This document shows positions 50,275 to 64,000 of a DNA stretch of 64,000 nucleotides, piece after piece. Where the stretch lies: assembly GCA_902564295.1 (NCBI GenBank), contig CACFAO010000003.1, positions 1 to 64,000 of the forward strand, in the 5' to 3' direction. The position numbers and the translations under genes are program-made. This stretch comes from an uncultured Pelagibacteraceae bacterium (GTDB lineage: Bacteria; Pseudomonadota; Alphaproteobacteria; Pelagibacterales; AG-422-B15). The notes under the pieces are model-generated. The model was not told where the DNA came from, did not search any database, and saw only the letters and a list, made by a program, of their open reading frames with translations. Positions within the stretch are counted from its first letter, which is position 1; each line of letters starts with the position of its first letter.

Positions 50275-53200
50275 ATGACCAAAAAACTAATTCAGGCACT
50301 TGAACCTCGCATGATGCTCGATGGAGCTGCAGTTGCAACTGCAATCGACACAATCGATGATTTATCGAACTTGAATAAAACTGATTTAGATAAAAAATCA
50401 AAGGAAAATAATTTTAAAACTGATCAAGATACAAAACTTCCATTCGTTAATCGTGAAAGTACAAATCAGAATGCAAGAACCAAACAGTTTGTATTCATTG
50501 ACAGTGCAGTTGATGACATTGAAGTTTTAATTAAAAGTTTTGATAACAATACTGAAGTATATGTCATTCAAAGTGAGCAGGACGGTTTTGCTGAAATTGA
50601 AAATATTTTATCTAGCAAGTCAGATATTGATGCGTTGCACATCATCGGTCACGGAAGTGTTGGGCAGATAGCATTTGGAACGGCTGTTTTAAACAGTGAT
50701 ACACTTGATACTTACAGAGATACGTTAAAAACTATTGGTTTAAGTTTAACTAAGCAAGGAGATATTTTATTTTATGGTTGTAATGTTGCAGCTGATCTAA
50801 ATGGAGAGGTCTTCATTAAACAACTCGCTGATATAACCCAGTCGGATATTGCAGCATCTAATGATATTACTGGTCAAGGTGGAGATTGGGATTTAGAGAA
50901 ACATGTTGGCATTGTAGAAACTCAAAATATAAGCGTTATCAATTATAAACATTCTCTGAGCAATGATGTGACTGCTGTTCAAAATGCTGTTGAAATACAC
51001 GGAGCGACAAATTTAAAAGCAGGTGGAGGAAATTTCTCAGGCAATAAAAATGGACAACAAGACAGCAGCGATCGATGGATCATCACACAGGAAAAAGCTA
51101 ATGTGACTACTGGTAGCACACTGACCTTTGATGTTGGAGTGGCTGTAAACAGTTGGGATCCAGATACAGATGGCCCGGTAAACGTGTACATGGTCTATCT
51201 GAACGATGAAATCAATCGACGAGGATCGAGTGACCGAGGTATAGTTGACTTTACTTACGAAATTTTAGGTGTGTTCACGATACCTGATAACACCATTTTT
51301 ATGTCAGGTTATACGGATAAGGGAAGTTCTGCTTATCCTTCTAGTAGTGCTCAGAAAGTTGGTAAAAGGGATTTTGAGTATTCTGGCGGTGCGCCTGGAA
51401 GTTTGACATCGGGCAGTGACGGTTGGCTTGTTTCAAATTCTAATAAAAGAATAACATTGTCAGCTGATAACGGTGAAAAAGGTGACTTTATTCGTGTGGT
51501 TACCAGAGCTGCACAAGATGACCCCGTGGTCGCAAACAATGATTCTGGTTATATCAATGAAGGCTCAACATTAAGTGTTTCTAATGGTGCAAGTGCAAAT
51601 GATAGCACACCTGATACATCAGGCGAGCATACAGGGGATGTGTTGCTTAATGACACCGGAGGTGTAGCAAGTTTATATGTAAGTGCTATCACTGGAGGAT
51701 CTCTTGGATCGGCTGTATCAGGGACTTATGGACAGCTGACTTTATATTCAAATGGATCATACAGTTATAATGCTAATAATGCTGAAGCCCTAGATGCAGG
51801 AGATATCGTTACTGACTCATTTACTTATACAGCAGATGATGGAACCACTGATAATAATGCAACGATTACGATTACTGTTAAAGGAGTGAATGATGCTCCT
51901 GTTGGAACAGCTGATACGGGATCTGTCAATGAAGATAAACAGCTCACGGTCAGTGCAGGAAGTGGTGTTTTAACAAACGATACTGATGTGGACGCTAGTT
52001 CAAGTTTAACAGTATCTGCTGTCCAAGGACAGGCAAGTAATGTTAACTCAAATGTTACAGGCACTTATGGTACATTAAATTTAGATGCTGATGGATCTTA
52101 CACTTATATTGCTGATCAAAGCGCTGCAGATGCAATCGTTGCCGGGCAGACGGCAACAGATACATTCGCATATACTGTAAGCGATACTATGGCTACGAGT
52201 ACGGTTAATTTAGTCATCACGGTAACGGGTGTGGGACCCGGAGCAGTCAACGACACTGACACAGTTGCTGAAAATGGTGCTCTTGATCGTAATGAAGCCG
52301 CCGGAGTACTCGCCAATGATGATGATAATGCAGCAAAAGATTCAGAAAATTTAATTGTCACAGAGATCTCATCCGATAGTACAGGTAATAGCGGCAATGC
52401 TACTCAGGGTGTGCTTGGAACCTATGGTACTCTAACCGTTGCAGCTGATGGTAGTTACACATACACCGCTAATACCGCTGCTGCAGAGGCTTTAGCCGCA
52501 GGCGATAACAGTCAAACTGATGTATTCACTTATAAAATGAAAGATGATAATGGCGTTAATGAAGATACCGCAACTCTAACCATCACAATACAAGGTCAAG
52601 ATGATGATCCCGTTGCATCAGCAGACACCGGAACAGCCAGTGAAGACGGCCCACAAGTTTCAGTAATTGCTGCTGCTGGTGTTTTAGCCAATGATACCGA
52701 TGTAGATGCTGGAGAAAACCTATTCGTTTCAGCTGTCGGAGGTAACGCTTTAAACGTAGGTGGAGATGTCACGGGATCTCTTGGTACTCTTAATTTAGAT
52801 GCAGATGGATCTTACACGTATATTGCTGATCAAGCCGGTGCAGATGCAATCACTGCAGGACAAACTGCAACAGATACATTTAATTACACCCTAAGTGACG
52901 GTGAAGGGGACACAAGCACTGTTAACTTAGTCATTACGGTTACAGGTAAAGGGCCAGAGGGTGTTGCGGACACAGCAACAGTAACTGAAAACTCAACAGT
53001 AGAGAAAAACAACGCGGCTACTAATGGTGTATTAGCAAATGATGACGATAACGCATCATTTGATCAAGAAAGCCTTGCAGTAACTGCTATCACTGGAGCA
53101 TCAGCCGGAACAGTTGGCGGAACAACAGCTGGTACTCATGGTACTCTCACGATGAACCAAGATGGTACTTATTCTTATGCAGCTACTAACGATGCTCTTG

Positions 53201-56200
53201 ATGATGGAGAAACTGTCGATGATGTATTTACGTATACGGTTAAAGACGACGATGATAAAAACTCAAGCACCGCAACGTTAACTATTTCTGTAACTGGAGC
53301 AAATGACCCAATTACCGCAGCTGATGATACAGATGGTGTTACGGCTGGGTCAACAATAACAAGAGATGAGGCATCAACCTTTGAGTTAGACCATGACGAT
53401 ACTGACCCTGACGGCGATGATGTGTCAGGTAACTTTACTATTACTGCTGTAACTCATTCATCAGGAACTCTTATAGTTGGTCAAGAATATACAACTTCTA
53501 AAGGTAGAATTACGATCGATTCAAACGGTTCGTATACATATATAGCCGATCAAAATGACTCTACAAGCTTAGCAAATCTTGCAACAACAGATGATATTTT
53601 TACTTATACAGTGAGAGATCACAGTGGGGGTGATACAGACACTGCAACACTTACAATTACAATTACAGGTTCAACTAATACCGCTCCTGTTGCTGATGAC
53701 CCTCTTGTAGATGGCAATCCTGCAACTGGATACATTACTGAAGATCAAATATTGACAGTTACGAATGGTTCCACAGGAGTTACCGGTCTCGACAGTAATA
53801 ATAATAACGAAAGTGGTGATAACACGGGGGACGTTTTAAATAATGATACCGATGCAGATGGTGATACACTTACTGTTTCTGAAATATCAGGTGGTTCTGT
53901 TGGTGCTGGTGGTGCCACAGGAACATACGGAACATTAACCATTCAAAGTGATGGTAGTTATGAATACAACGCAAATAATGCAAACTCGATAGCAAAAGAT
54001 ACTACTGCAACTGATGTTTTCACTTATACAGTCAGCGATGGCAATGGCGGAACGGATACTGCTAACATAACAATTACTATTTTAGGAGTAAATGACGCTC
54101 CAAGTGCAAGCAATGATACGAATGCTGTTGATGAAGATGCTACAGCAACAAAAACTGCTGGTACGGGAGTACTATCAAATGATAGTGATGCTGATACAGG
54201 TTCAAGCATGACGGTGACAGCAATTACCGGTGCATCAGCAGGCTCAGTTGGTGGATCAACAAATGGAACTTATGGTACTTTGACCCTTAATTCTGATGGT
54301 AGTTATTCTTATACTGCTGACAAAGCAGCTGCAGACCAATTGGCACACAACGCTACGGCAAATGACGTATTTACTTACACGGTCACAGATAACGAGGGCG
54401 CTACTGCCACTGCAACTTTGACTATTGTGGTAACCGGTAAGGGACCTGTTGGTTCAGCCGACACTGCTTCAGTCAATGAGAATGTTTTACTTGAAAAGAA
54501 TGAGGCAAGTGGAGTGTTAACAAACGACTCAGGTGGAGATACTGAGAATCAAATTGTAACTAATATTTCATCAAATGATACAAGCAATACAGGTACTGCA
54601 GGTCAAGGAGTCTTAGGAACTTATGGTACTTTAACTATTAATGCTAATGGCAGTTATTCGTATACACCGAATACAGCTGCTGCGGAAGCTTTAGATAAAG
54701 ATGATGTTGTCACTGAAGTCTTTACCTACACGGTAAAAGATGACAATGGCGTTAACTCAAGTACTGCTACTCTCACATTTACCATAACTGGAGTGAATGA
54801 TGCAATTGTAGCAGTTGACGATACAGATAGTGTTGATGAGGACGGTACAGTTACAAGACTAATCAGTGACGATCAAGAACTAGATCATGATGATACCGAT
54901 GTTGATACAGATGATGTAAGCGGTAGTCTTACAATTACAGACATAAGAACTGGTCCAAAAGATGGAACTGGAACTGATGGGACAGTAGGTGTGGCGCTAA
55001 CTGGTGAATTTGGAACACTGACAGTTAATGCAAATGGTTCATACACCTATGCTGCTGATCAGGATAAATCAGATCAATTGGTCACAAACCAAACCGGAAC
55101 TGATACATTTACATACACAGTAAGTGATGGCAATGAAACTTCAACGGCCGAACTTTCATTCACAGTTACAGGTATCAATGATAATGACCCAGTAGCAGTA
55201 GATGACACAGATACTGTTAAACGTGATTCATCAATCACCCGTGATAAAGATTCAACGCTTGCAATTAACGCAGATGATACTGACGCTGATGGAGAGACTC
55301 TAACCATTTCTGCAGTTCGAACTGGTCAAGTTGAGGGTGGAGGTAAAGGAGGTCCCGCTAAAGTTGGCACTACCTTGAAGGGAACCTATGGTACTTTAAC
55401 TCTAAATGCTGATGGAAGTTATACTTATGCTGCGGATCAGGATGCAGCTAATGTTCTTAAAAGAGGCGATAGTGCTATTGATTATTTCAACTATACTGTA
55501 ACTGACGGCGAAAGAACAGACACGGGAGTGATTGCATTCACAGTTGAAGGTATCAGTGACCCACCAGAACCTGTTGATGATACTTTAGAAATCGGTGCAG
55601 GTGCACAAACAGAAAAAGATGCTTCTGAAGGAGTGCTTAAAAATGATACCGACCCTGACGGAGATACTTTAACTGTCGATACAATTAGAACTGGCCGTGA
55701 AAATAAAACAGGGACATCAGGTACCATTGGTACAGCCTTACCTGGAAGTTATGGTAGTTTAACGATGAACGCTGATGGTAGCTATAGCTATACTGCCGAT
55801 AACGCTAAAGCATTAAATCCTGGGGAAACAGCTACAGAGTACTTTACATATACAGCTAATGACACGGACACTTCAGTTGCAGCTGAAATTGCAATTACTG
55901 TTACGGGTAAAAACGATCCACCTGAAGTCTTATACCCTATAGATGATCCCATTGTCTTCACAGGCCAAACAATCAATATCAGACATAAGCAAATTTTTGA
56001 TGATCCAGATCGAGGCGCATTTGATATTACTGAATATAAAATAATTGATGAAGAAACAGAGGCAGAAACAAGTCTTCCAGATGGCCTTAGATTAAAGCAA
56101 AATAAATTAACTGGAAGTATTAGTGAGCCAGGAACATACATAATCACAATCAGAGCAATAGATGGAGCAGGGCTTTACGCTGATTTCACGTTCACGATTA

Positions 56201-57297
56201 CAGTAAGACCTGCACCAGGATATATAGGTGAAAAAGAAATAGTTGAAGAAGCTCCACAAAACTTTGACCCATTAATAATTAAACCAAAAAAAGATTACTT
56301 GGCAGCTATTAAAGAAATAATTAATGAAGGATCTTCAATTGATAGTGATGACGGCTTTACACTTGATACAGTATCAATTGCCGATACTGCATCTCTTTCA
56401 AGACCTCTAAAATTTAATGGCGGTTTAAGATTGATGGATGCGGTTGCAAATGAAGTTTCTGGAGATACAGACTCAGATCTAAAAGTCGGTGTCAAATTAA
56501 ATGACGATAATCAAAAAAATGTTGAATTGTATTCAGGCCAGCTCTCAAACGGTGAGGCATTGCCTGAATGGATAAAAGTAAACCCTGAAACAGGCGAAAC
56601 AACTGCAGACATGCCTGAAGGTGTTGAAGCAGTTGAAGTTCAATTAGTTGCTCTTGATAAGGATGGAAATACCAGAGATATTAATATTGTTTTAGATAAA
56701 GCTAAAATTAAAGGTGACCAAGACTTTGCAAGGGGAGCAATTGATCAGGCAAGAGTTGTTGTCGATAATGATGCAAATGTAAATTTGATTAGAGATAACA
56801 ATAGTTCATCTAATAATACTGAAAATAACAATTTAAATGCACAGACAGACTTTGATGGCACAATGAAGTTAAGCGGTCTTCAAATGGATGCGGGCCAATA
56901 CACAATAGATGTAATAGATGATAATCAGTCAAATGTAAAATTGTATAAAGCAGAGCTTAAAGGTGGTGGGGCATTGCCTGATTGGATTACAATCGATCCT
57001 GAGACTGGAAAAATTGCAGCCGATCCCTCAAAAGGTCGAACTGGCTCCGCAGCTCCTGCATTCTTAATAGAAAGCCTCCAAGTTCTCGAACTAAAAATTA
57101 TTGCTGAAGATGAAGATGGAAAAGAAAGAGTTATTGAAGTTGAGATTGATCTAAATGAAATAACAGAAACTGAGTCCGATAGTGAAAATTCAGAAACAAA
57201 TGACGAAATTTCCTTCATTCCACTTGATGAACAATTAAAGCTTCATGCTAAAGCAGCAGATAGCTATGGCGAAAAGATTGTATCTCTAGTAAGTTAA
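50275..57297 (+). CDS. Giant secreted/surface protein: LEPR motif + DUF4347-like + ~12 VCBS/cadherin-like repeats + CADG-like and duplicated C-terminal modules
   Basis: N-terminus [43 protein letters not shown]...[14 protein letters not shown]...[15 protein letters not shown] (DUF4347-like); repeated [19 protein letters not shown]...TDxFTYTVxD...ATLTITVTG. Confidence 0.93.
51520..55920 (+). repeat. About 12 tandem VCBS-type coding repeats (~120 aa each)
   Basis: Recurring DTxxVxEx...GVLxNDxD...GTYGTLTxxADGSYTYxA motifs in the translation. Confidence 0.9.
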
Positions 57298-59362: not shown

Positions 59363-61471
59363 ATGATTGTACCGTCTATCCGACAAGATTTGAAACTCAG
59401 TGAGGGACCAAAGAAAGAAGACGGATCAGCATCGTGGCTTCTTTATGACTCATTAAGGAATAAATACTTTTCAATAAACAAAAAAGCATTTGATCTCCTT
59501 AAAAATTGGTCAAGTGGAATTGAGACGACAGAATTTATTGAAAAAATAAAAAAAAGTAATCTTTCTATCACACAAGAAGAAATTGAAGAATTTATCAGTT
59601 TTCTAAACCTCAATAATTTAACTATTAAAAAAACAGGTGATGAAGTGAAATCTTTAGTTGTTCAAAAAGAGAAACTTAACAAGCATTGGCTGTTAAAAAT
59701 TATTCATAATTATTTATTCTTTAAAATCCCTTTGTTCAAACCAGGAAATGGTCTTGAAAACAGTTTGCCTTTTGTATTGTTTCTTGGATCGCAAACTAGC
59801 AGACTTATAATCTATATTCTCGGGATTATTGGTATTTTTTTAACAATCCAAAATTATGAAACATTTTTAACAACATTTTCCTATTTCTTTAATGTTAATG
59901 GATTGATTTTGTTTGGCATAACGATTGTCTTTGTAAAAGCCTTGCACGAACTTGGGCATGCTTATGTTGCCACTTATTATAAATGCAAAGTTTCTTCAAT
60001 TGGTCTTGCAATGCTGGTTTTTTTTCCCTTCTTGTACACAGATACAACCGATGCTTATAAATTAACTGATCATCGAAAACGCTTACTGATTAATTTTGCT
60101 GGCATGCTGACAGAATTGCATCTTGCCCTTCTCGCTACATTTGTTTGGGCTGTAAGCCCTGAAGGCGTTATCAAAAGTGCTTCATTTTTTATTGCGACTT
60201 CAAGCTGGATATCATCACTTCTTATTAATATTAGCCCGTTTATGAGATTTGACGGTTACTATGTGCTCTCGGATTTTCTTAAAGCGGAAAATCTTCAACC
60301 GCGCTCTTTTGCTTTAGGTCGATGGCAGATTAGAGAATGGATCTTTGGATTTAAATTCCAACCACCGGAGCAACTCATGAGTCAAAGACGGTGGACTTTC
60401 ATTATTTACGCTTGGATGACATGGATATATCGCTTCTTCATATTTATTGGAATTGCCTTATTAGTTTATTATTTAACATTCAAAATTCTTGGTATCATTC
60501 TGTTCATAATTGAGATTGTTTGGTTCATTTTACTACCAATTTGGAGAGAAATTAAACAGTGGTGGGGACTTAGAAGGTACATGCGTTTTAATTGGACTTC
60601 TTTAAGATCAATTATTATTTTCTCAGTATTTTTGGCAGCAATGTTGGTACCATGGCGAAGTTCACTCAGTCTTCCAGCGGTGATTGATCGAGGTGAAGTA
60701 GTCGATATCTATCCAACAGAAGATTCAGAGATAAAAGAGATTTTTGTTATCTCAGATCAACAAGTCGAAAAAGGTGATTTATTAATAACAATGATGAGCC
60801 CATCTCTATCAAATAAAGTTGATAAAGCAATTGAGCGCGTGAAGATGATACAACAAAAACTAGACCGTCGAATTGGATCAGAGGCTGATATGAAAAACCT
60901 CATGGTATTAGAAAACCAATTAAAAGTAGAATTTGAAATTCTTAAAAGTCTCAAAGAGGAAAATGAAAATCTATCCATTTATGCACCAATGGGTGGGGTG
61001 ATAAAAGATCTTAAGTATTTAAATAATGGACAGTGGGTGAATATAAAAGAAAAATTATTTTCTATTGTTCAATTCAATGACACAAAAGTTGTTGCATTCA
61101 TTAGCGAAAATGATTTGTATAAACTTGAAGATAATACTAGTGGTTATTTTGTGCCAAAAAATAATGAATTTGATGAAGCAGAAGTTGTCTTGGTTTCACA
61201 AAATAATACATCGACAGAAGAACTTCCTTACTTATCATTAGTATCTACTTATGGTGGATCAATTGCATCTCGTGAAGTGAAGGGAGATGGAAAAATTATT
61301 TATCGACCAGAAGAAGCATTATATCAGCTTAATTTTTCTACAAGTACAGAAGTTGAGACTGTTCAATGGCAAACAGCAGGAAAAGTAAAAATTCAAACTG
61401 AAAACTATAATATTTTTCAAAATCTATTTAATTTGGTTTCATCAACATTAATTAGAGAAAGTGGATTTTAG
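59363..61471 (+). CDS. M50-family (site-2-type) metalloprotease fused to HlyD-like adaptor, with PqqD/RRE-like N-terminus
   Basis: HELGH zinc motif in LHELGHAYVATYYKCKVSSIGLAMLVF; SPFMRFDGYYVLSDFLKAENL; C-terminal EVVDIYPTEDSEIKEIFVISDQQVEKGDLLITM and IYAPMGGVIKDL; N-terminal SWLLYDSLRNKYFSINKKAFDLLKNWSSGIETTEFIEKI...EEIEEFISFLNLNNLT. Confidence 0.85.
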   Translation: MIVPSIRQDLKLSEGPKKEDGSASWLLYDSLRNKYFSINKKAFDLLKNWSSGIETTEFIEKIKKSNLSITQEEIEEFISFLNLNNLTIKKTGDEVKSLVVQKEKLNKHWLLKIIHNYLFFKIPLFKPGNGLENSLPFVLFLGSQTSRLIIYILGIIGIFLTIQNYETFLTTFSYFFNVNGLILFGITIVFVKALHELGHAYVATYYKCKVSSIGLAMLVFFPFLYTDTTDAYKLTDHRKRLLINFAGMLTELHLALLATFVWAVSPEGVIKSASFFIATSSWISSLLINISPFMRFDGYYVLSDFLKAENLQPRSFALGRWQIREWIFGFKFQPPEQLMSQRRWTFIIYAWMTWIYRFFIFIGIALLVYYLTFKILGIILFIIEIVWFILLPIWREIKQWWGLRRYMRFNWTSLRSIIIFSVFLAAMLVPWRSSLSLPAVIDRGEVVDIYPTEDSEIKEIFVISDQQVEKGDLLITMMSPSLSNKVDKAIERVKMIQQKLDRRIGSEADMKNLMVLENQLKVEFEILKSLKEENENLSIYAPMGGVIKDLKYLNNGQWVNIKEKLFSIVQFNDTKVVAFISENDLYKLEDNTSGYFVPKNNEFDEAEVVLVSQNNTSTEELPYLSLVSTYGGSIASREVKGDGKIIYRPEEALYQLNFSTSTEVETVQWQTAGKVKIQTENYNIFQNLFNLVSSTLIRESGF

Positions 61472-61545
61472 TGGTGCCCCTAGCTGGTTACGCTCCAGCG
61501 GCTGATCATTACCAATGACCTGCTTTACTATTAAGCGATAGGGGC
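61472..61545 (-). tRNA. tRNA-Thr(GGU)-like gene or pseudogene with atypical D/T loops and encoded CCA
   Basis: Minus strand GCCCCTA TC GCTT-AATAGTA-AAGC A GGTCA-TTGGTAA-TGATC AGCC GCTGG-AGCGTAA-CCAGC TAGGGGC A CCA: 7/4/5/5-bp stems, T33, anticodon GGT, A37, 4-nt variable loop. T-loop lacks TTCRA; D-loop lacks GG. Confidence 0.5.
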
Positions 61546-61712
61546 AAAGCATTGATATCAAACAGTAATATCGTTTATACAATGTTGAATTATTTTCTGT
61601 GTAGCAATAATGCAGCAGTTACACAGACTGTAATTTCTAGCTTTTATGCATAATAACACATTTTTTTCATGATTGGATATGATTTAAGCCATTGATATAT
61701 ATGCATACATGA

Positions 61713-61779
61713 ATGAACACCTTACAAAACATATTTAATACTACTACCTCAATACTCATTCAGGAAAGTGGATTTTAGT
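61713..61779 (+). repeat. Diverged duplicate of the 3' end of the M50-HlyD gene
   Basis: ATG...TAG at 61713-61778 reads [21 protein letters not shown], versus the M50 protein C-terminus YNIFQNLFNLVSSTLIRESGF* (12/21 identical). 16-bp exact DNA repeat GAAAGTGGATTTTAGT at 61457-61472 and 61764-61779. Confidence 0.75.
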
Positions 61780-62395
61780 TTATTTCAAGGCCACCTTCAG
61801 TTTTGAGAAACTCAGCAATATTTTCTATACCCTTATTATTCTTCATTTCACAAAAAATATAAGGCATGCCTGATCGGGCAGTTTCAACATCTAATTTCAT
61901 TTGATCCAAATCAACATTTACGTGATTTGCTAAATCAGTTTTATTGATGATTAGTAAATCAGATTTTCTTATTGCTGGCCCACCTTTGCGAGGGATATCA
62001 CCTCCCATTCCAACATCAATCACATAGATTGATAAATCTACTAACTCTGGACTAAACGTTGCAGCCAAATTATCTCCACCTGACTCAATCAATAGCAATT
62101 GTAAATCAGGAAATTTTTGTTTCATTTCTTCTACAGCTAAGAGGTTAATCGAAGCATCCTCTCGAATTGCGGTATGAGGGCATCCACCAGTTTCAACACC
62201 TTTAATTCTCTCAATTGGTAAAACTTGAGCTCTCATTAAATACTCGGCATCTTCTATTGTATAAATATCATTCGATATAACTGCCATTGAAATATTTTTA
62301 GATAAATTTTTGCACAAAGCCTCAGTAAGACTTGTTTTACCTGCACCGACGGGGCCGCCAATACCAATTTTTAAAGGTCCTCGAAAATTATTCAC
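61775..62395 (-). CDS. ureG: Urease accessory protein UreG (GTPase)
   Basis: [49 protein letters not shown]. Confidence 0.97.
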
Positions 62396-63051
62396 GTGAC
62401 GTAAATTCTAGATTTAAGATTTTCGTGTTTCATACTATAAATATCCGCACAAAACATTGAACTGCGTAAATCGTCTAAGCTTAATTCTTTCATCGTATTA
62501 TGAAAACTTTTCATCATACCAAGAAATGAAAACATACAATCTTGACCATCTTTTTGACTTAAAGGTATATGTTTAACGCACATATTAATTAAGTTTGAGA
62601 TGAATGATTGAATATAAAAATCAACTAAATCATCAAAAGCAATATGAAATTTAATCCCTGCTTGAGCAATACAGACTGGAAAAGCAGTCTCATTATTTAT
62701 TGTATAGTTCCAACTCTCAGACATAATTTTTCTGAAGGCATCGCCCATTTTGAGTGTTTCAAGTTGACGTTCCTTAGATGCGCAGCTTGCAAGCACTAAA
62801 TCATTTATATCAATACCATCATAGGTAGCCTTTATAAAGATATACTCATTTCTGCAGGTTCCCTCAAAGAGAATACTCTTAATAAATTCTAATACGTCAT
62901 TTTTATTTTTGATAAGCTTGTCATCAATTATAGCCTCGAGACCATGCGAATAAGCGTATGAACCAATAGGAAATGAAGATGAAAACCAAAGATGCAAAAT
63001 TTGATGAGATTTTAAATCTAATGGGTTTTTATCTTTAATGTTGGTGACCAT
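62392..63051 (-). CDS. ureF: Urease accessory protein UreF
   Basis: [24 protein letters not shown]; likely start MVTNIKD at 63051, with the longer ORF (63123) overlapping ureE more. Confidence 0.9.
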
Positions 63052-63478
63052 GCGTTCTTCCCATACCATAAGCCCCTCCTTCAGGATTAAATTGTTCAAC
63101 CACAGATTTTGTCTTCCCCCCAAGTCTTCTCACCATATCCTCAATGATATGGTCATTTTGTATTAAGATTCTTGTAGCTTCAATCTGACAGGGGATATGT
63201 CTATTTCCGATATGCCATATTAACTTATTTAAATTTTCTGACTTGATCTCAATTAAATTTTCTTTTTTTGATTTTATAGTAATTAATTTTCCACTCTGAA
63301 GTTTGAAAGCTTGATTACTCAAGACTGATTTCATTTCATCAAGATCAACTAGAAATTCATGGCCTTTGTCAGAAACTAATTTTTTGCGTCGCATGAATCT
63401 CTCCTCATAAGATAGGGAAATTATATCCACCACTTCAGAGAAATCATAGTAACTTAAAATTGAATTACAAATTTCCAT
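63035..63478 (-). CDS. ureE: Urease accessory protein UreE
   Basis: IWHIGNRHIPCQIEATRILIQNDHIIEDMVRRLGG; C-terminal HGHQH. Confidence 0.93.
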   Translation of the reverse strand: MEICNSILSYYDFSEVVDIISLSYEERFMRRKKLVSDKGHEFLVDLDEMKSVLSNQAFKLQSGKLITIKSKKENLIEIKSENLNKLIWHIGNRHIPCQIEATRILIQNDHIIEDMVRRLGGKTKSVVEQFNPEGGAYGMGRTHGHQH

Positions 63479-63480
63479 AG

Positions 63481-64000
63481 TCAGTACATAAAATATTTTT
63501 GTGCCATTGGTAATTCTTCTGCCGGTTCACATGTTATAATTTCTCCATTTGCTCTAACCTCATATGTTTCAGGATTTACATCTATAGTTGGGCAAACATC
63601 GTTTAATACCATATCTTTTTTTGAAATTGACCTTGTATTGCTTACTGGTAACAAAGTTTTTTGTATATTCAGATGATTTAGGCTATCTGCTTCCAGTGAA
63701 CTCTTACTGACAAAAGTTACCGATGAATTTTCAAGCGATCTTCCATAACTTCCAAACATTGGACGTGTATACACAGGTTGAGGAGTTGAAATCGATGCGT
63801 TTGGATCGCCCATTTGAGCGCAGGCAATACTTCCACCCATTATTATAATCTCAGGCTTAACACCAAAAAAAGCTGGGTCCCAGATAACGATATCGGCTCT
63901 TTTATTTTTTTCGAGACTGCCAACATAAGAAGAGATTCCATGAGCAATTGATGGGTTTATTGTATATTTTGCAAGGTAACGTTTAACTCTTAAATTATCA
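63481..64000 (-). CDS. ureC: Urease alpha subunit UreC, C-terminal part (continues past window edge)
   Basis: [29 protein letters not shown]...[27 protein letters not shown] matches the UreC C-terminus; frame stays open to 64000. Confidence 0.93.

Follow-up and report, generated by a model that had tools for sequence, protein, structure and literature searches.

Gene content and structure of the locus

The window, i.e. the whole 64-kb stretch of DNA that was analysed, carries close to its right-hand end a small gene on the minus strand, placed between a convergent gene for an M50 peptidase and a block of urease genes. The features referred to below are as follows.

59363-61471, plus strand: M50 peptidase/HlyD-like gene running towards the tRNA gene, its stop adjoining the CCA (open reading frame; Pfam Peptidase_M50 and HlyD)
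61472-61545, minus strand: tRNA-Thr(GGU) gene including the encoded CCA at 61472-61474 (RF00005, 50.9 bits; many relatives carry an identical or nearly identical copy)
61488-61494, minus strand: T-loop AGCGTAA, with A54 = 61494, G55 = 61493, C56 = 61492 and U58 = 61490 (invariant in seven distinct variants; covariation of 18-55, 19-56 and 54-58)
61508-61545, minus strand: nt 1-38 of the tRNA (its 5' half), the core of the attachment site, found as direct repeats on either side of islands in four relatives
61511-61513, minus strand: anticodon GGT, within loop TTGGTAA at 61509-61515 (read from the sequence)
61526-61532, minus strand: D-loop AATAGTA, with A18 = 61529 and G19 = 61528 (invariant in seven distinct variants from two groups; covaries with the T-loop)
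61722-61779, plus strand: remnant of the 3' end of a second M50 gene, beside ureG, between the tRNA gene and ureG (direct repeat, 72% identical to 61415-61472)
61546-64000, minus strand: urease block on the 5' side of the tRNA gene, with ureG at 61775-62395 and further ure genes, continuing past the window end

The minus strand at 61472-61545 forms a complete cloverleaf with anticodon GGU and an encoded CCA. It consists of a 7-bp acceptor stem (GCCCCTA/TAGGGGC) with discriminator A, a D stem (GCTT/AAGC) closing a D-loop AATAGTA that lacks GG, an anticodon arm GGTCA-TTGGTAA-TGATC with one G-T pair, a 4-nt variable loop (AGCC), and a T stem (GCTGG/CCAGC) closing the T-loop AGCGTAA. The encoded CCA starts at 61472, directly after the M50 stop (61471). 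The anatomy given in the sequence-only reading is therefore correct for every stem and loop, the discriminator, the CCA and the abutment on the M50 stop. As CCA is encoded by every other tRNA gene of the host genome too, its presence here is no mark of foreign origin. No consensus sigma-70 promoter was found upstream of the tRNA gene.

When the whole window was compared with all Rfam families, the only match was that of RF00005 to 61472-61545, at 50.9 bits against a cut-off of 29 bits (E = 5.7e-8; model positions 1-71 of 71), which is far above chance. The fold has a z-score of -3.07, and none of 200 shuffled sequences was equally stable. ARAGORN reported no tRNA in the window, as had been anticipated from the atypical loops, and this serves as a warning that a tRNA finder can overlook the sole gene for an anticodon.

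On the far side of the M50 gene, the window includes at 50275-57297 a gene for a 2340-aa repeat protein, followed by HlyD, HlyD and M50-HlyD genes. The large protein presumably has a DUF4347-like start and cadherin-like repeats, and the region looks like a giant surface-protein export cluster. In the relative G022, a complete M50 gene ends at the place of the remnant, overlapping ureG.

Distribution of the gene and selection on its stems

When 84,980 GTDB species genomes were scanned for GGU tRNA genes having the T-loop AGCGTAA, 50 loci were found in 50 genomes. The carriers are genomes of family f1, the family of the window genome, taken here as the SAR11 AG-422-B15 group, and of a second alphaproteobacterial group, one member of which is titled HIMB59-MED-G10. 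A pattern for the AGCGTAA form applied to the genomes of relatives, which are small genomes of one order, matched 31 genomes, all from f1. In the gene of the second group, GCCCTCTTAGTTTAATAGTAAAACAGGGTCTTGGTAAGACTCAGCCACTGGAGCGTAACCAGTAGAGGGC, the acceptor, D, anticodon and T stems differ from those in the window and both loops are the same. The AG-422-B15 group and HIMB59 are placed in separate orders under current taxonomy (PMC10734472). The gene could be common to them through descent or transfer, being too short to tell which.

Among the seven distinct variants, the D-loop AATAGTA and the T-loop AGCGTAA never vary, and 99.3% of cells at the 21 stem pairs are paired. Double changes occur at 10 of the 21 pairs, and compensatory changes, which were to be sought in relatives, are present in all four stems. 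Stem covariation over these variants is 0.494, as compared with 0.192 when shuffled and no more than 0.07 when slid, in tests that ignore relatedness; independent events are fewer. As judged by this selection, the tRNA is functional.

The sequence-only reading had proposed a decaying tRNA-Thr copy, and decay of a tRNA or pseudo-tRNA carried with the locus would account for the non-canonical D- and T-loops, the negative ARAGORN result and the variable island surroundings described below. It is refuted by the combination of compensatory changes in all four stems with loops that are invariant, in a gene kept in 50 genomes, and it is opposed by the gene being the only one for tRNA-Thr(GGU) found; decay is accordingly given almost no weight.

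An apparent sole tRNA-Thr(GGU)

The host assembly comprises 1.09 Mb in 35 contigs and is 79% complete. Its 30 other tRNA genes, all with TTCRA T-loops, were extracted and typed, and include one for Thr(UGU) and none for Thr(GGU). Likewise, the variant is the only Thr(GGU) gene among the typed tRNAs of a 99% complete relative (G019). A canonical Thr(GGU) pattern, which recovers Thr(GGU) in many f2 genomes, returned no Thr gene from 53 f1 genomes, all matches being Leu or Gln. In 16 genomes of the second group, the variant was the only Thr(GGU) gene matched by a pattern blind to the T-loop. Hence, the canonical tRNA-Thr(GGU) for which a search elsewhere had been advised was found neither in the window genome or G019 nor by pattern in the 53 family genomes. 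Both the window genome and G019 are without tRNA-Asp, showing that gaps exist in the assemblies, and for the window genome, with its 79% completeness, the sole-copy claim is one that rests on the relatives. It is unlikely that a canonical copy lies hidden in all these genomes.

ACC and ACU make up ~47% of the Thr codons in long open reading frames of the window, and in both the window genome and G019 the variant is the only GGU-anticodon tRNA found for these codons, which are in use. However, the typed tRNA list of G052 (98% complete) includes Thr(UGU) and not Thr(GGU), and neither the canonical nor the T-loop-blind pattern found Thr(GGU) in the g6 genomes G052, G054, G078, G097, G105, G107 and G112. 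This suggests that a GGU tRNA may be partly dispensable, and the gene may be less than essential, since some Pelagibacterales appear to be without Thr(GGU).

A rewired elbow

The residues of the D-loop, numbered in the standard way, are A14 A15 U16 A18 G19 U20 A21, and those of the T-loop are A54 G55 C56 G57 U58 A59 A60. The canonical elbow, formed by G18G19 and a TTCRANY T-loop, is thus absent from this tRNA, in contrast to the other 30 host tRNAs with their TTCRA loops. In the canonical form, residues 18 and 55 pair through a single hydrogen bond, with residue 18 inserted in the T-loop, and residues 19 and 56 form a Watson-Crick pair that lies exposed at the elbow (PMC4810234). The latter is present here as G19-C56.

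A comparison of 34 distinct Thr(GGU) genes revealed few combinations at these positions: only G-U or A-G at 18-55, only G-C, U-A or A-U at 19-56, and only U-A, G-G or A-U at 54-58. In 200,000 shuffles, with relatedness ignored, other combinations were avoided 0, 4 and 0 times, respectively. This covariation indicates an elbow that is rewired and selected, rather than broken. Hence, the earlier statement that tertiary-contact residues are not retained stands for the canonical residues, which are gone, but not for the contacts as such, as covarying replacements A18-G55 and A54-U58 are found and G19-C56 is kept. A15-C48 is no standard Levitt pair, and the elbow is therefore not fully explained.

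Further odd T-loops in Pelagibacterales were found by T-loop-blind searches, namely GTCAGTA, ATCATTA, TGCAAGT, TTAGATT and TTTGATT, and elbow changes sit in several lineages. The A18/G55 combination was encountered again in a Thr subgroup that is Pelagibacter-like, in the tRNA-His of G036 (L054; D-loop AGTTAGTTA, T-loop TGCAACT) and in the tRNA-Phe of G052 (L282; D-loop AGTAGTA, T-loop TGCGATT); counted by lineage or isotype, its independent occurrences number at least four. The open-access literature searched yielded no report of these T-loops from SAR11. The tRNA itself is of a known kind, and it is the elbow that is a new variant.

These data also bear on the possibility that the tRNA is specialised for a role outside ordinary translation, as an amino-acid donor or regulator, with tRNA-Thr(UGU) reading all ACN codons. 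An altered elbow could weaken contacts with elongation factor or ribosome, and, with Thr(UGU) alone found in at least one relative, G052, the order may include cases of a single tRNA reading four codons. Nevertheless, such a role is unlikely, given that no ordinary Thr(GGU) stands beside the variant, unlike the staphylococcal case considered below, that the anticodon arm, discriminator and acceptor resemble those of ordinary tRNA-Thr, that no donor enzyme is linked to the tRNA, and that the same elbow change affects His and Phe tRNAs.

Relation to TruB

The pseudouridine-55 synthase TruB was sought with TruB_N in the f2 genomes G042, G044, G053, G041, G173, G103 (genus g3) and G052 (genus g6), and was found in none of the seven, whereas controls and other relatives gave matches. 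Loss of TruB in Pelagibacter-like genomes is thus apparent from these searches. The second group and G036 have TruB, as do the f1 genomes with the exception of a single incomplete one. TruB loss was considered as the cause of the variant in the window and rejected, because the enzyme is present in f1. In Pelagibacter-like genomes, its loss may have freed the elbow forms found there.

An island attachment site in the 5' half of the tRNA gene

Relatives have the segment from the M50 gene to the 5' end of the tRNA gene in common and diverge beyond it. Direct repeats of nt 1-38, lying upstream of the full gene, bound segments of 8.5 kb in G032, 9.6 kb in G009, 2.7 kb in G033 and 3.7 kb in G028, and the site is empty in G014, G011, G026 and G059. 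The native 5' flank of the empty sites continues from the outer repeat in G032, G033 and G028. The suggestion that the gene is a possible integration target is borne out by these repeats and empty sites, in which the 5' half of a tRNA is seen acting as an island attachment site.

The island ends are conserved, and a doubled 9-mer is found at both, ~130 nt inside each core and at matching positions; three islands have TGTGTCCTA, and the one in G009 has TGCTACATA. In IMG/VR, doubled TGTGTCCTA has one match, just upstream of an integrase gene on an unrelated viral contig (L310), and doubled TGCTACATA has five, one of which overlaps the end of an integrase gene on another unrelated viral contig (L314). 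These matches support, but do not prove, an assignment of the doubled 9-mers as putative recombinase arm sites. IMG/VR contained no exact match to fragments of 30 and 19 nt taken from the 5' half of the tRNA or to the conserved end of the islands, and no phage with the attachment site was identified in this way.

The cargo differs between islands and includes a helicase with a type IIG-like restriction enzyme, a helicase with a CHAT protein, and T5orf172 with DUF4116 genes. The four islands (L114 2943-11486, L115 4034-13625, L168 4166-6895 and L169 3032-6729) share the 38-bp repeat and doubled 9-mers, are without an integrase and carry cargo that is partly of defence type. In two of them, a related unannotated gene pair (L114 3220-4558 and L115 11916-13225) encodes proteins of ~232 and 196 aa with signal-peptide-like starts, the cargo being otherwise different. 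A further exact copy of nt 1-38, followed by similar island-end sequence, occurs in G009 on contig 6 (L170 5815-5852).

No tyrosine recombinase was found in the islands by a Phage_integrase search, and the island genes tested were others or without a family. For two small proteins that the islands of G032 and G009 have in common, a role as recombinase was considered but dismissed, as they appear by eye to be secreted or membrane-anchored and have no Pfam match. Phage_integrase matches number at most two per searched genome and are XerC/XerD-like. A helper acting in trans is therefore inferred.

In the window genome itself, the far edge of the urease block in the contig lies 2 nt ahead of the point at which the tRNA would begin in the empty site. 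An intact tRNA repeat at this far end is absent from the window genome, and 20 nt of the repeat are kept there in G010 (95% identical).

The duplication of the 5' half at islands and the variation of 5'-side flanks among relatives could also mean that the tRNA is kept chiefly as part of mobile islands, as an element-borne tRNA or attachment site, and is not a host gene. This is very unlikely, as the gene also occurs where the site is empty and there is no island, lies in L228 and L206 of the second group beside a transporter-like gene without any such island being seen, and is the only Thr(GGU) gene found.

Proposed function and mechanism

The explanation favoured here, with a probability of about 0.85, is that the gene encodes a working elongator tRNA-Thr(GGU), apparently the sole GGU-anticodon tRNA for ACC and ACU, in which the residues of the elbow have been exchanged as a matched set and nt 1-38 provide the attachment core for islands. 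Expression of the tRNA, its charging by ThrRS and the geometry of the 18-55 and 54-58 pairs are presumed from the sequence comparisons. A18 with G55 would replace G18 with pseudouridine-55, and A54 with U58 would replace U54 with A58, the exposed G19-C56 pair being kept. G55 could turn the chain in the way that the G of a GNRA loop does. Given the lack of U54 and U55, the usual modifications there, m5U54 and pseudouridine-55, could not form, and the tRNA would not receive them. At the DNA level, a recombinase, probably supplied in trans, would carry out the exchange within the first 38 nt of the tRNA gene. Through the incoming element, this half would be restored and an upstream region belonging to the element added, and the native half would persist as the 38-bp repeat that marks the island's far end.

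More broadly, free-living marine Alphaproteobacteria have probably evolved an alternative elbow more than once, with A18-G55 in place of G18-pseudouridine-55 and with 19-56 or 54-58 switching as covarying pairs, to give working elongators without a need for pseudouridine-55. The GGU tRNA-Thr would be a hot spot for this change, perhaps since tRNA-Thr(UGU) partly covers its codons, and in Pelagibacter-like genomes the change stands beside the apparent loss of TruB. Except in organelles and in a few special tRNAs, the contacts between D-loop and T-loop are regarded as nearly invariant. The genomes of these very abundant ocean bacteria show such contacts replaced, as clean covariation between paired positions, and there are canonical relatives to compare them with. 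This makes it testable which elbow pairs are truly required by the ribosome, EF-Tu, RNase P and TruB.

Comparison with known systems

In islands located at tRNA genes, the repeated part is more usually the 3' half. Islands and satellites of the tyrosine-recombinase class that integrate in tRNA genes include the hitcher elements (PMC11389934). The islands reported here are alike in having a fragment of the tRNA repeated at the island ends, arm-like repeats, and both empty and filled sites. They differ in that the 5' half is repeated and in that the integrase is absent from the island, the genomes having only a XerC/XerD-like pair.

The canonical elongator tRNA-Thr(GGU) of G036 and the tRNA in the window share the cloverleaf, GGU anticodon, acceptor start GC, discriminator A, encoded CCA and short variable loop. 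The former has a GG D-loop and the T-loop TTCAATT, whereas the latter has AATAGTA and AGCGTAA, resulting in A18/G55 and A54/U58. D- and T-loop residues are also altered in the staphylococcal cell-wall tRNA-Gly, which coexists with ordinary tRNA-Gly; the tRNA in the window is similar in its altered loops but appears to have no ordinary partner.

Other tRNAs with an altered elbow are tRNA-Pyl, which is without G18/G19 and U54, pseudouridine-55 and C56, and animal mitochondrial type II tRNAs (PMC7609411), and A54 is carried by the eukaryotic initiator tRNA (PMC7912444). All of these resemble the tRNA described here in deviating from the GG/TpsiC arrangement with the cloverleaf retained. In contrast to them, the present case is that of an ordinary-looking elongator from a free-living bacterium, with full-size arms, one-for-one covarying replacements and retention of G19-C56.
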